A stretch of 64,000 bases of DNA from Rhodopseudomonas palustris (GTDB taxonomy: Bacteria > Pseudomonadota > Alphaproteobacteria > Rhizobiales > Xanthobacteraceae): positions 5,184,501 to 5,248,500 of the forward strand of contig NZ_CP140155.1 in the NCBI RefSeq assembly GCF_034479375.1, written 5' to 3'. Below, piece by piece: positions 52,124 to 60,564 of this stretch. How positions within the stretch are numbered: the stretch's first letter is position 1; every line of letters starts with the position of its first letter. The notes beneath the pieces are model-generated. The model was not told the DNA's origin and did no database searches. It worked only from the letters and a program-made list of their open reading frames with translations. A program made the position numbers and the translations under genes.

Positions 52124-52148
52124 GGAACAAATCGAAACCGGCGACGTT
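52124..52148 (+). promoter_or_regulatory. EcfG-type promoter of the stress sensor gene
   Basis: GGAAC, 16 bases, CGTT: an exact match to the alphaproteobacterial general-stress sigma consensus. It starts 10 bases after the ureG stop and would give a leader of about 140 bases before the sensor gene. A 40-codon frame (52182-52304) lies in that leader; whether it is translated is unknown. Confidence 0.8.
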
Positions 52149-54106: not shown

Positions 54107-54652
54107 TCAGCCGTTGCTTCCGATCACGGCCCGAACCGTGTCGTCGGGACCGAAGTCTTCGGCGCCGTCGACATAGAGCAGTGCACTCAGCTTCGAGCGC
54201 GCGCGGTTGACGCGGCTCTTGATGGTGCCGACCGCGCAGCCGCAGATCGCGGCAGCGTCTTCGTAGGAGAATCCCGAAGCGCCGACCAAAATCAGTGCTT
54301 CGCGCTGGTCCTGCGGAAGCTTCTCCAGCGCCGCTCGGAATTCTTCGAATTCCAGATGCGCGTTCTGACCCGGCTGAGATTTCAGCGTCTTGGCGTAACT
54401 GCCATCGGCGTCCTCGACCTCGCGCCGCCGTTTCCGATAGTCGGAGCGGAACAGGTTGCGCAGAATCGTGAACAGCCACGCCGGCAGATTCGATCCCGGT
54501 TGGAACGAGTCGATATTGGCCAACGCCCGTAGCAAGGTCTCCTGCACGAGGTCGTCGGCGCGATCGCCGTTGCCGCTGAGCGAGATCGCAAACGCGCGCA
54601 AACTCGGCACGGCAGCCAGTATGTCGTCTCGAAGAGAATCGGTGAGAGGCAT
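54107..54652 (-). CDS. ecfG: General stress ECF sigma factor EcfG
   Basis: The ECF15-class sigma factor of the alphaproteobacterial general stress response. The 181-residue protein has region 2 (about 15-80; DRADDLVQETLLRALAN and NLPAWLFTILRNLFRSD) and region 4 (about 115-170; LPQDQREALILVGASGFSYEDAA and GTIKSRVNRARSKL). It directs RNA polymerase to GGAAC-N16/17-CGTT. Its ATG shares a base with the nepR stop codon, so anti-sigma and sigma are co-translated. Confidence 0.95.
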   Translation of the reverse strand: MPLTDSLRDDILAAVPSLRAFAISLSGNGDRADDLVQETLLRALANIDSFQPGSNLPAWLFTILRNLFRSDYRKRRREVEDADGSYAKTLKSQPGQNAHLEFEEFRAALEKLPQDQREALILVGASGFSYEDAAAICGCAVGTIKSRVNRARSKLSALLYVDGAEDFGPDDTVRAVIGSNG

Positions 54653-54873
54653 TAGTCCCTCCTCTCGCTGTCGGTCGCTGCTGCCGGGCTGCCTTGCTGG
54701 GGGTCGTCCAGCCGTTTGATCAGGTCGGCAAACCGATCTGGCACCCCTTGCCTGACCACATCATCGTACATGGCGCGCAGCTGATGGCCGATCCGAGCCT
54801 GAATCTCCTGATTCAGGCCACCTTTGCTGCCAGGCGACGACTTCCTCGTTGTCTGAGCCTTGAAATCTTTCAT
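54652..54873 (-). CDS. nepR: Anti-sigma factor NepR
   Basis: Binds EcfG until phosphorylated PhyR takes it away. The 73-residue protein has the conserved helix pair, IGHQLRAMYDDVVRQGVPDRF and FADLIKRLDD (given as short motifs), between disordered ends, as in the family. ATG at 54873 gives MKDFKAQTTRKSS. It is the first gene of nepR-ecfG and is divergent from phyR. Confidence 0.93.
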   Translation of the reverse strand: MKDFKAQTTRKSSPGSKGGLNQEIQARIGHQLRAMYDDVVRQGVPDRFADLIKRLDDPQQGSPAAATDSERRD

Positions 54874-55001
54874 GACTGATCCAATGTCTTCCCCGTGGTC
54901 AAGTCCCCCTGAAATCACTGGGGTTTACCTTGATTTTTGAAGGTGTTGCGGTGTCACTGGGAGCCTAATTCAGCCGCAGCGGTAAAGTTCCCCGGTTGGA
55001 T

Positions 55002-55092: not shown

Positions 55093-55899
55093 ATGTCGAG
55101 ATCGCAGTTGGTTGCTGAGCACTTACCGTTGTTGCGTCGCTATGCGCGAGCCTTGACCGGCAACCAGGCGTCGGGTGACGCCTATGTTGGTGCAATGCTG
55201 GAAGCGCTGCTTCAGGACCCGGCACTGCTCGACGAACGACATGGACCGCGCGCGGGGCTGTTTCGCCTATTTGCTCAGATCTGGAATTCGGTAGCACTGA
55301 ACGACGACTCCGAGGTCCGCTCGCTGCCCATGCCGTCCGAACGTCGCCTCTCGGCGATCACTCCGCTGCCGAGGCAGGCGTTCCTGCTGTTGTCGCTGGA
55401 GGGGTTTTCCGAGGAAGAAGTGGCCTTCGTCCTCCACACCGACGTTGGGGAAATCCGTCAACTCGCCGATACGGCGGGCCGGGAGATGGCCGAGGAGATC
55501 GCCACCGATGTCCTGATCATCGAGGACGAGACCTTTATCGCGATGGATCTGGAAAGCCTGGTCAAGAATCTCGGCCACAATGTCATCGGTGTCGCCCGCA
55601 CCCATGCGGACGCGATCGCCCTGGCGCGCTCCAAGAAACCGGGTCTGATCCTTGCCGATATCCAGCTCGCCGATGGCAGTTCCGGCCTGGACGCGGTCAA
55701 CGAGTTGCTGAAGACCTTCGAGGTGCCGGTGGTGTTCATCACCGCCTATCCGGAGCGGTTCCTGACCGGCGAGCGCCCCGAGCCGGCGTTCCTGATCTCG
55801 AAGCCGTTCCAGCCGGCGATGGTTTCTGCGGTGGCGAGTCAGGCGCTGTTCTTCCAGCGCAATTCGCGCAACCGGACGCCGAACGCCGCCGCATCCTGA
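55093..55899 (+). CDS. phyR: Anti-anti-sigma response regulator PhyR
   Basis: The switch of the general stress response. The 268-residue protein has an N-terminal sigma-like domain (about 1-140; LPRQAFLLLSLEGFSEEEVAFVL) that mimics EcfG and binds NepR. The C-terminal receiver (about 138-262) has E144-D145 in the acidic pocket, phospho-acceptor D189 in LILADIQLADG, VFITAYPERF and the Lys in LISKPF. Phosphorylation releases the sigma-like domain. ATG at 55093 has a GGAG-type site upstream. It is divergent from nepR-ecfG. Confidence 0.96.
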   Translation: MSRSQLVAEHLPLLRRYARALTGNQASGDAYVGAMLEALLQDPALLDERHGPRAGLFRLFAQIWNSVALNDDSEVRSLPMPSERRLSAITPLPRQAFLLLSLEGFSEEEVAFVLHTDVGEIRQLADTAGREMAEEIATDVLIIEDETFIAMDLESLVKNLGHNVIGVARTHADAIALARSKKPGLILADIQLADGSSGLDAVNELLKTFEVPVVFITAYPERFLTGERPEPAFLISKPFQPAMVSAVASQALFFQRNSRNRTPNAAAS

Positions 55900-55928: not shown

Positions 55929-55967
55929 CAAGGCCGCTCGCGCGCAAGCGCGGGCGGCCTCTTTGTA
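55929..55967 (+). terminator. Rho-independent terminator of phyR
   Basis: The stem AGGCCGC...GCGGCCT, interrupted by a small CGCGCGCAAGCGCG apex, is followed by CTTTGT. It lies about 30 bases past the phyR stop. Confidence 0.8.
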
Positions 55968-56056: not shown

Positions 56057-56142
56057 GCAAAGCAAAGAACAGGGCGCAGCTGGCATCACCACAGCTGCGC
56101 CCTGTATTGCCGGTCAATTGGGGCAGGGGGACTAACCGGCGC
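56057..56142 (-). ncRNA. Candidate GsrN-like small RNA downstream of phyR
   Basis: No gene was expected here, but the minus strand has all the parts of a short RNA. An EcfG-like promoter (56149-56174) points to a start near 56142. The first hairpin pairs CCGGTTAGT (56139-56131) with GACCGG-containing bases 56118-56110, nine pairs including two G-U, and presents the 12-base loop CCCCCTGCCCCA. The second is a perfect 13-bp stem (56104-56092 with 56082-56070), followed by TTCTTTGCTTTGC, an intrinsic terminator. A C-rich 5' loop with a terminator hairpin, made by the general-stress sigma, is the architecture of GsrN of Caulobacter. No homology search was possible; ends are estimates. Confidence 0.55.
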
Positions 56143-56148
56143 GGGCAC

Positions 56149-56174
56149 AACCTTCATGGCTGGTCTGATGTTCC
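56149..56174 (-). promoter_or_regulatory. EcfG-like promoter of the candidate small RNA
   Basis: Read on the minus strand: GGAAC, 17 bases, GGTT. The -35 is exact and the GTT of the -10 is kept; one base differs from CGTT. The spacing of 17 is also allowed for this sigma class. Confidence 0.55.
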
Positions 56175-56325
56175 GAAGCCGCGCCGGAAAATTTCACACA
56201 CTTAGTTGATCGATCGTTATCGAACCCTGCCCGCGCCCAAACGATTAATTGGTGTGGCGGGCTTGACAAGCCGCCGAAAGAACGAAAGCGGCAATCCTGC
56301 CGCGTAAAAAGAGCGGCAAGATACC

Positions 56326-56709
56326 ATGTCACTAATCGTGCGGGGAATTTTGGGCGCCATTGCGATCACGGGCACGCTCGGCGTGGCACAGCTGGCGGTT
56401 GGCGGCGACCTCGGTCAGGTCCGCCTGCAGCGAGATGCCTCGACGGCCCAGGAAATCAACCGCAGCAACAAGGCCGATCGCGGAGCCTTGGCCCGGCAGG
56501 TCGAGCCGGGCCAGACGTTCGGCGTCAATCTGGTCGATCAGTCGGTGCTGGTCCGTGTGCCGGATACGCAGGTAGGCCAGGCCACGCGCATTCGCGCGCA
56601 GCAGCCGGCACCTGTTTCCCCGCGCCGAACGATGGTCGCGTGTGAGCCGGTGGTCAGCGTGTTGACGGAGGTGGCCAAGCGGCTCGAACCCGGTCGATGC
56701 GTGACCTGA
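56326..56709 (+). CDS. Hypothetical secreted protein
   Basis: A 127-residue protein of unknown family. MSLIVRGILGAIAITGTLGVAQLAVGGD is a likely signal peptide or anchor. The mature part is Arg/Gln/Val-rich with two cysteines (CEPVVSV and GRCVT) near the C-terminus that could form a disulfide. ATG at 56326 is the first start; a TTGACA -35-like element lies near 56263. A strong terminator follows at 56738. Confidence 0.6.
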   Translation: MSLIVRGILGAIAITGTLGVAQLAVGGDLGQVRLQRDASTAQEINRSNKADRGALARQVEPGQTFGVNLVDQSVLVRVPDTQVGQATRIRAQQPAPVSPRRTMVACEPVVSVLTEVAKRLEPGRCVT

Positions 56710-60188: not shown

Positions 60189-60389
60189 TCAGCGCAGAGT
60201 CTTGAACCAATCATCGACGTCGCTGCTCACCTTGTCCTTGGCGTAGCCGTAACGCTCCTGAAGCTTGCCTTCGAGCTGGTCGCGGCGGCCGGCGATCTTG
60301 TCGAGATCGTCATCGGTCAGTTCGCCCCACTTCTCTTTGACGTTGCCCTTGAATTGCTTCCAGTTGCCTTCAACGCGGTCCCAATTCAT
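60189..60389 (-). CDS. CsbD-family general stress protein
   Basis: A 66-residue hydrophilic protein. MNWDRVEGNWKQFKGNVKEKWG and DQLEGKLQERYGYAKDKV are the CsbD-like repeats (quoted as short motifs). Three ATG codons lie in a row; the third (60389) gives the standard MNWD start with the right distance from GGAG. CsbD proteins are abundant under general stress, function unknown. An exact EcfG promoter lies 28-52 bases upstream. Confidence 0.93.
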   Translation of the reverse strand: MNWDRVEGNWKQFKGNVKEKWGELTDDDLDKIAGRRDQLEGKLQERYGYAKDKVSSDVDDWFKTLR

Positions 60390-60416
60390 CATCATTCTCC
60401 GTTGTAGATGCTCATC

Positions 60417-60441
60417 AACGGACGGCTGTGTCGAAGGTTCC
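60417..60441 (-). promoter_or_regulatory. EcfG-type promoter of csbD
   Basis: Read on the minus strand: GGAAC, 16 bases, CGTT, exact. The predicted leader is about 20 bases. Confidence 0.82.
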
Positions 60442-60564
60442 CGGACCGTCTGCGGCAAGCGGTCGCCCGAATCTCGGCGCCAAGTAACAGGTTACCGAAC
60501 GTAAAAAGACCCCTCCCTTGCGGGAGAGGCCTTGCTTGTCGGCGGGCCGATAAGTTTGACCTGA

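Follow-up and report, generated by a model that had tools for sequence, protein, structure and literature searches.

Sequence analysis strongly supports a small-RNA gene on the minus strand at positions 56142-56057 of the window (the whole 64-kb stretch of DNA analysed here), and we put at roughly three in four the probability that it encodes a stand-alone, trans-acting RNA of the general stress response (GSR) that is transcribed by EcfG and resembles GsrN of Caulobacter. A candidate EcfG-controlled small RNA downstream of phyR had been proposed in an initial annotation of this DNA. Conservation and covariation now support a small-RNA gene that is isolated, has an EcfG-type promoter and lies beside phyR, nepR and ecfG. 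Transcription, pairing in trans and the targets are predictions, as is dependence on EcfG, which is suggested by the promoter sequence and the location of the gene. The features concerned are the following.

56174-56170, minus strand: -35 element GGAAC of an EcfG-type promoter, read from the sequence and invariant in 18 of 18 aligned copies
56152-56149, minus strand: -10 element GGTT, read from the sequence, after a spacer of 17 nt from GGAAC
56142-56057, minus strand: predicted transcript of about 80-86 nt, with a start near 56142-56140 placed by promoter spacing
56140-56109, minus strand: 5' hairpin, stem 56140-56131 with 56118-56109, from the predicted fold, covariation and RNAalifold
56140-56134 with 56115-56109, minus strand: conserved 7-bp core stem of the 5' hairpin
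56130-56119, minus strand: C-rich loop CCCCCTGCCCCA of the 5' hairpin, putative seed 1
56105-56069, minus strand: terminator-like 3' hairpin of 14 bp, stem 56105-56092 with 56082-56069
56082-56089, minus strand: loop GTGATGCC of the 3' hairpin, the second conserved one, putative seed 2
56057-56068, minus strand: T-rich tail 3' of the 3' hairpin, reading TCTTTGCTTTGC
55093-55899, plus strand: phyR (Pfam PhyR_sigma2, PhyR_sigma-like and Response_reg), convergent with the small RNA
54652-54918, minus strand: nepR, anti-sigma factor (Pfam NepR)
54107-54652, minus strand: ecfG, ECF sigma factor (Pfam Sigma70_r2 and Sigma70_r4_2)
56326-56709, plus strand: ORF of 127 aa with no Pfam match, divergent from the small RNA, next to which a homologue is present in many loci

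The promoter, GGAAC-N17-GGTT at 56174-56149 on the minus strand, and the C-rich loop in a 5' hairpin followed by a perfect 13-bp hairpin are present where the initial annotation had placed them; an outer A-U pair adds to the 13 perfect pairs of the 3' stem. The run that was said to follow this hairpin is T-rich as described but interrupted (TTCTTTGCTTT), and by eye many of the 18 aligned copies have a T-rich tail. Folding of the 86-nt stretch gives -44.2 kcal/mol (z -4.95), which none of 200 shuffles equalled, and most blastn matches in relatives start near 56140. The 3' hairpin is strong and covarying and carries the T-rich tail; a simple terminator scan, restricted to loops of 3-8 nt, does not call it. 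The gap had been described as encoding no protein, and indeed none of the frames stays open throughout the 18 aligned copies: each frame on the RNA strand is open in at most eight of them, and the best frame on the opposite strand in 15. An Rfam search, which had been suggested for the interval, assigned it to no family; Rfam 15 gave no match in the window at the gathering cut-off, the best weak one being STnc320 with 24.5 bits at a cut-off of 50.

By itself, the promoter motif could be due to chance, since GGAAC-N16/17-[CG]GTT occurs five times on the two strands of the 64-kb window, the small-RNA promoter included. The looser form GGAAC-N16/17-NGT[TC] occurs 12 times on the two strands, and this frequency is what speaks for a fortuitous coincidence of hairpin and promoter match. 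Such a coincidence, or a repeat element, is nevertheless hardly credible in view of the covariation and promoter conservation described below. In addition, the element has a single match in its own genome, where the next matches of R1, the covariance model of the small RNA, lie at E > 0.1 in a first-pass search that can miss divergent copies.

A blastn search with a 161-base query found the element in 18 of 61 genomes, namely all 16 of the genus Rhodopseudomonas and two more of the family. In the alignment of these 18 copies GGAAC is invariant and the spacer variable, with the C-rich loop and GTGATGCC as conspicuous features. Two-sided changes were observed at 10 of the 21 base pairs, a number reached by none of 500 shuffles, and sliding the pairing partners by 1-3 columns left at most three such pairs. 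Of all pair cells 98.4% pair, and RNAalifold predicted 20 of the same 21 pairs; one of the five covariation measures, further pair types, was unremarkable (98 of 500 shuffles). The two-sided changes affect two of the seven pairs of the 5' core stem and eight of the 14 pairs of the 3' hairpin. In an alignment of 49 rows, which was fitted to the model and so leans towards it, and in which one row (L106) is the phage look-alike treated below, they affect 16 of 21 pairs (three of seven and 13 of 14, respectively). Hairpins and promoter are kept in close relatives, with covariation; their loss there had been named in the initial annotation as grounds for rejecting the gene.

The range of the RNA was followed with R1, which at E <= 0.01 had matches in 108 of 296 family genomes; 93 of these, spread over 11 genera, reached E <= 4e-8. 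The remaining 15 matches are weak (E 2e-5 to 0.006). Three of these that were read (L072, L073 and L074) each adjoin phyR, nepR and ecfG, and have GGAAC upstream as well as a C-rich stretch at the position of the loop. The weak matches L054 and L055 have no GSR gene in the locus. The weak match of one genome (G467, locus L076) was rejected as a small RNA, as it sits at the end of phyR and is probably the terminator of that gene. R1 matched 11 of 249 genomes in an order sample (eight of the family and three weak matches) and three of 240 in a class sample (its own genome and two weak matches), with no strong match outside the family in either sample; a plasmid collection gave no match. A pattern scan of named species genomes returned at least 119 stretches; R1 matched 48 of the first 80 listed (49 matches, one locus twice, L106 included) and 27 of the remaining 39, leaving 44 of the 119 listed unmatched. 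The named records among the matches listed are mostly Bradyrhizobium, and also Afipia and Rhodopseudomonas.

Two Bradyrhizobium-type loci hold a second copy near the main gene. One of these (L147 2935-3021, plus strand, 82.4 bits) has neither GGAAC where expected nor the exact loop strings, and the other (L058 4163-4240, plus strand, 51.9 bits) keeps the 3' hairpin and has no C-rich loop. A record labelled 'uncultured Caulobacter' also carries the RNA (L130 4366-4453, minus strand, 86 bits); the PhyR beside it is 89% identical to that of the window, and the record is probably a mislabelled Bradyrhizobium-type assembly.

Promoter and loops were counted across 124 rows, which reduce to 117 distinct copies, 116 of them with enough upstream sequence; matches below 50 bits, the second match in L058 and L106 (phage, coding) were left out. 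In 115 of the 116 copies GGAAC is found 28-32 nt ahead of the model start, the exception being the second, divergent copy in L147, as against 24 of 1971 control windows further upstream, which settles that the promoter match is more than chance. NGT[TCA] follows GGAAC after 16 or 17 nt in 113 of the 115 copies (16 nt in 84, 17 nt in 29). The -10 element reads AGTC in 68 copies, CGTC in 24, CGTT in 11, TGTT in four, GGTT in three, CGTA in three and otherwise in two. Given these counts at both elements, the -35 element is nearly invariant and the -10 element looser than the strict GGAAC/CGTT rule in the accessible text of Tien, Fiebig and Crosson (2018, PMC5869019); the rarity of a strict CGTT (11 of 115) counts against our reading of the RNA as an EcfG-transcribed regulator.

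Both loops are conserved too. The core CCCCTGCCCC of the C-rich loop is present in 111 of 117 copies and GTGATGCC of the 3' hairpin loop in 116 of 117, as in 18 of 18 aligned copies. Of the 117 copies, 68 came from a search pattern containing both loops; in the other 49, GGAAC was found in 49, GTGATGCC in 49 and CCCCTGCCCC in 44, the loop figures not being free of bias because the model behind many of these copies already contains the loops. The blastn set of 18 and the 49 copies from outside that pattern agree in the conservation of both loops. The second conserved loop, GUGAUGCC, does not figure in the initial annotation.

The small RNA sits between phyR, with which it is convergent, and the divergent 127-aa ORF at 56326-56709. 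On the far side of phyR lie nepR, ecfG and an HWE histidine kinase gene; the name EcfG is given because this gene adjoins nepR and phyR, and nepR is present at all 18 loci of the first (blastn) set. Since phyR is convergent and the 3' hairpin lies 170-206 nt after its stop codon, the hairpin might mainly be a two-way terminator for phyR, with the RNA as a by-product. We regard this as very unlikely, as phyR has a G+C-rich hairpin and T tract of its own at 55932-55966 (seen by eye; the simple scan does not list it), and as the conserved promoter, the 5' hairpin and the two conserved loops would be left unexplained. Moreover, in one Bradyrhizobium-type genome (G063) some 15 kb separate the RNA from phyR, and the model matches it all the same. 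Homologues of phyR and of the 127-aa ORF adjoin the RNA in many loci, as would be expected if an EcfG-transcribed RNA acted in cis or as an antisense RNA on either of them. Against such an action, which we consider improbable, the distance to phyR in Bradyrhizobium-type genomes ranges from about 0.6 kb (L042) to about 15 kb (G063), the conserved parts are loops and not antisense stretches, and the predicted transcript ends before phyR.

Upstream of the promoter, a conserved block at 56195-56211 (minus strand GATCAACTAAGTGTGTG) precedes GGAAC by about 20 nt in the genus, and by eye a related GATCACTTAACCGTGTG is present in Bradyrhizobium-type loci; a strict pattern for the block matched 12 of 116 copies. 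It is perhaps a regulator site or the promoter of the divergent ORF.

A GsrN counterpart would be new for this group according to the initial annotation. This does not hold, because Tien et al. had already predicted homologues of GsrN for R. palustris and B. diazoefficiens, according to the accessible part of their paper solely from GSR proximity and a sigma-EcfG site (PMC5869019). The predicted R. palustris homologue is probably the small RNA at 56142-56057, given the same group and the same reasoning. The small RNA is well supported, and its kind is already known. The literature searched, to which most subscription papers do not belong, holds no later experimental account; PMC5082802 and PMC4842269 do not name it in the text accessible to us. 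Added here to a prediction that rested on position and promoter are the structure, the covariation, the range and the second loop. A position-only prediction thereby becomes a defined RNA family with a promoter, a structure and two conserved loops, which covers Rhodopseudomonas, Bradyrhizobium and Afipia records.

In Caulobacter, GsrN is activated by the GSR sigma factor, is 106 nt long and pairs through a loop with six tandem C, katG being a tested target; targets have been predicted for a second exposed region near its 3' end, and transcripts of sigT and nepR co-purified with the RNA (PMC5869019, accessible text). The small RNA shares with GsrN a promoter for the GSR sigma factor (GGAAC in 115 of 116 copies, although a strict CGTT in only 11 of 115), a location near ecfG, nepR and phyR (up to about 15 kb away in some Bradyrhizobium-type genomes) and an exposed C-rich loop in the 5' hairpin. 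It differs in its predicted length of about 80-86 nt and in its loop, which is CCCCCTGCCCC and not a run of six C, and katG pairing by the C-rich loop is unsupported. GsrN was compared by its published description, as far as accessible, and the small RNA is known here from its sequence. In the class sample, R1 matched none of the 239 genomes besides its own strongly. The putative GsrN-like RNAs of Rhizobiaceae and Brucella mentioned in the same paper belong to other families, and the order sample of 249 contained no strong R1 match outside the family of the small RNA. We propose a likeness in kind, leaving descent aside, in which the small RNA would work like GsrN.

Upon GSR activation, PhyR would free EcfG from NepR, and EcfG would transcribe the small RNA with GGAAC-N17-GGTT as promoter. 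The product, about 80-86 nt long, would terminate at the 3' hairpin that it carries itself. In the 5' hairpin the C-rich loop would be held open for pairing in trans with G-rich mRNA stretches, most likely close to ribosome-binding sites. A second contact site may be provided by GUGAUGCC, the conserved loop of the 3' hairpin, a reading that fits the second exposed 3' region described for GsrN in the accessible part of PMC5869019. Whether a C-loop small RNA is a usual part of the alphaproteobacterial general stress response now becomes a directly testable question, with the second conserved loop as a concrete new feature and a soybean symbiont among the tractable strains.

Pairing with targets was searched for in several ways. 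In putative katG leaders of 18 loci (18 of 19 found, 13 of the genus), whose start sites were set by rule and in several cases are doubtful, the C-rich loop paired no better than with shuffles (best case, 18 of 100 shuffles as good). For the second loop, no shuffle of 100 was as good in L335, four were in L325 and at least 14 in the other 16. The GsrN counterpart of the initial annotation is borne out in its stress-type promoter, GSR location and C-rich loop; an equivalent of GsrN-katG pairing through that loop was not found in the 18 leaders. We also sought the perfect 10-nt complement of the C-rich loop, GGGGCAGGGG, in four genomes, setting aside sites in the small RNA itself. Two groups of sites are common to all four, one inside a long ORF and the other within overlapping ORFs, in our reading near the antisense of an ORF start; a pair common to two genomes (L360/L363) lies 33 nt inside a candidate start. 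No evident mRNA leader was found among the shared GGGGCAGGGG sites of the four genomes, an outcome that, together with the katG result and the weakness of R1 matches outside the family, counts against our reading of the RNA. The sequence GGGCAGGG occurs shortly before an ATG at 40 sites of the own genome, 20 of which were read. At one gene of the HdeA/HdeB family (L590, 1508 and upstream, minus strand; about 2482605 in the own genome), GGGCAGGGGGGA at the ribosome-binding site is predicted to form a duplex of -26.1 kcal/mol with the C-rich loop, a value without shuffle control. This gene was found in four of the 16 genomes of the genus and pairs more weakly in the other three (-17.2 to -18.1 kcal/mol), so that we treat it as a possible target, a lead and not a result.

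That these searches gave no convincing conserved mRNA target, and that two short conserved loops sit on well-paired stems, would also suit an RNA that binds a protein, for instance to titrate a regulator, its loops being protein sites and not antisense seeds. We consider this rather unlikely: GsrN acts by pairing through its C-rich loop and other small RNAs with C-rich motifs are cited beside it (PMC5869019, accessible text), and no result obtained here points to a protein partner.

Look-alikes of the small RNA are found in phage and prophage sequences, at L106 1156-1245 (plus), L198 7264-7353 (plus), L216 13-102 (minus), L228 2342-2431 (plus), L433 452-541 (minus) and L434 7824-7913 (plus). 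The last five, which are viral loci, scored 42.3-50.7 bits with R1 and all contain CCCTGCCCC and GGTGATGCC; L106 and L228 are identical in their letters, and a search of L106 against Rfam gave nothing at the cut-off. Phage and prophage look-alikes present the loop cores of the small RNA on different stems. They are located within the 3' end of ninB or just past it, the next start codon following directly, and a flanking GCAGGG is complementary to the CCCTGC of the loop. L198, L216 and L228 came from a loop pattern (three of 41 hits with an R1 match), and L433 and L434 from a pattern for the 3' flank that leaves out the loops (six hits, five with the element). In the predicted folds, both hairpins form in L198, L216 and L228, the C-rich loop of L433 is partly paired within itself, and in L434 CCCTGC pairs with the flanking GCAGGG and hairpin 1 does not form. 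Among 81 viral loci (80 with NinB relatives, and L317), a strong R1 match was confined to L237 and L238, the contigs to which L228 and L216, respectively, belong. The look-alike is rare, with seven of 265 Bradyrhizobium-type genomes matching a pattern for it and one (G594) showing its letters.

One might suppose that the small RNA is a two-seed regulator, both loops being targeting sites kept across the family, and that the ninB look-alike, placed directly before the ribosome-binding site of the gene after ninB, mimics or taps the general stress network of the host. We think this unlikely. The similarity to ninB runs through the look-alike, which makes it coding at least in part; constraint on the protein, or convergence, might account for the likeness of the phage element.

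A GsrN-like RNA transcribed by EcfG, as we propose for the window, may have counterparts at other PhyR loci. A scan of 30 PhyR loci found four places with a promoter and a C-hairpin, namely the element described here, L417, L407 and L410, compared with none in 130,187 control bases; the place in L410 looks like a gene leader. L417 (about 3657, minus strand; genome G347) and L407 (about 2366, plus strand; genome G323) come from two other families. Near phyR, each has an EcfG-type promoter and, after it, a hairpin whose loop is C-rich; in L417 a hairpin resembling a terminator, with a T run, can also be seen by eye. R1 matched neither at E <= 0.1, and we list both as candidate GsrN-like RNAs.

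Within the window, further GGAAC-N16/17-CGTT motifs lie at 52124 (plus), 58128 (plus), 59773 (plus) and 60441 (minus). The motif at 52124 is upstream of the HWE kinase gene, and others may point to additional genes under EcfG control; the ORF at 60189-60458 appears to be CsbD-like.
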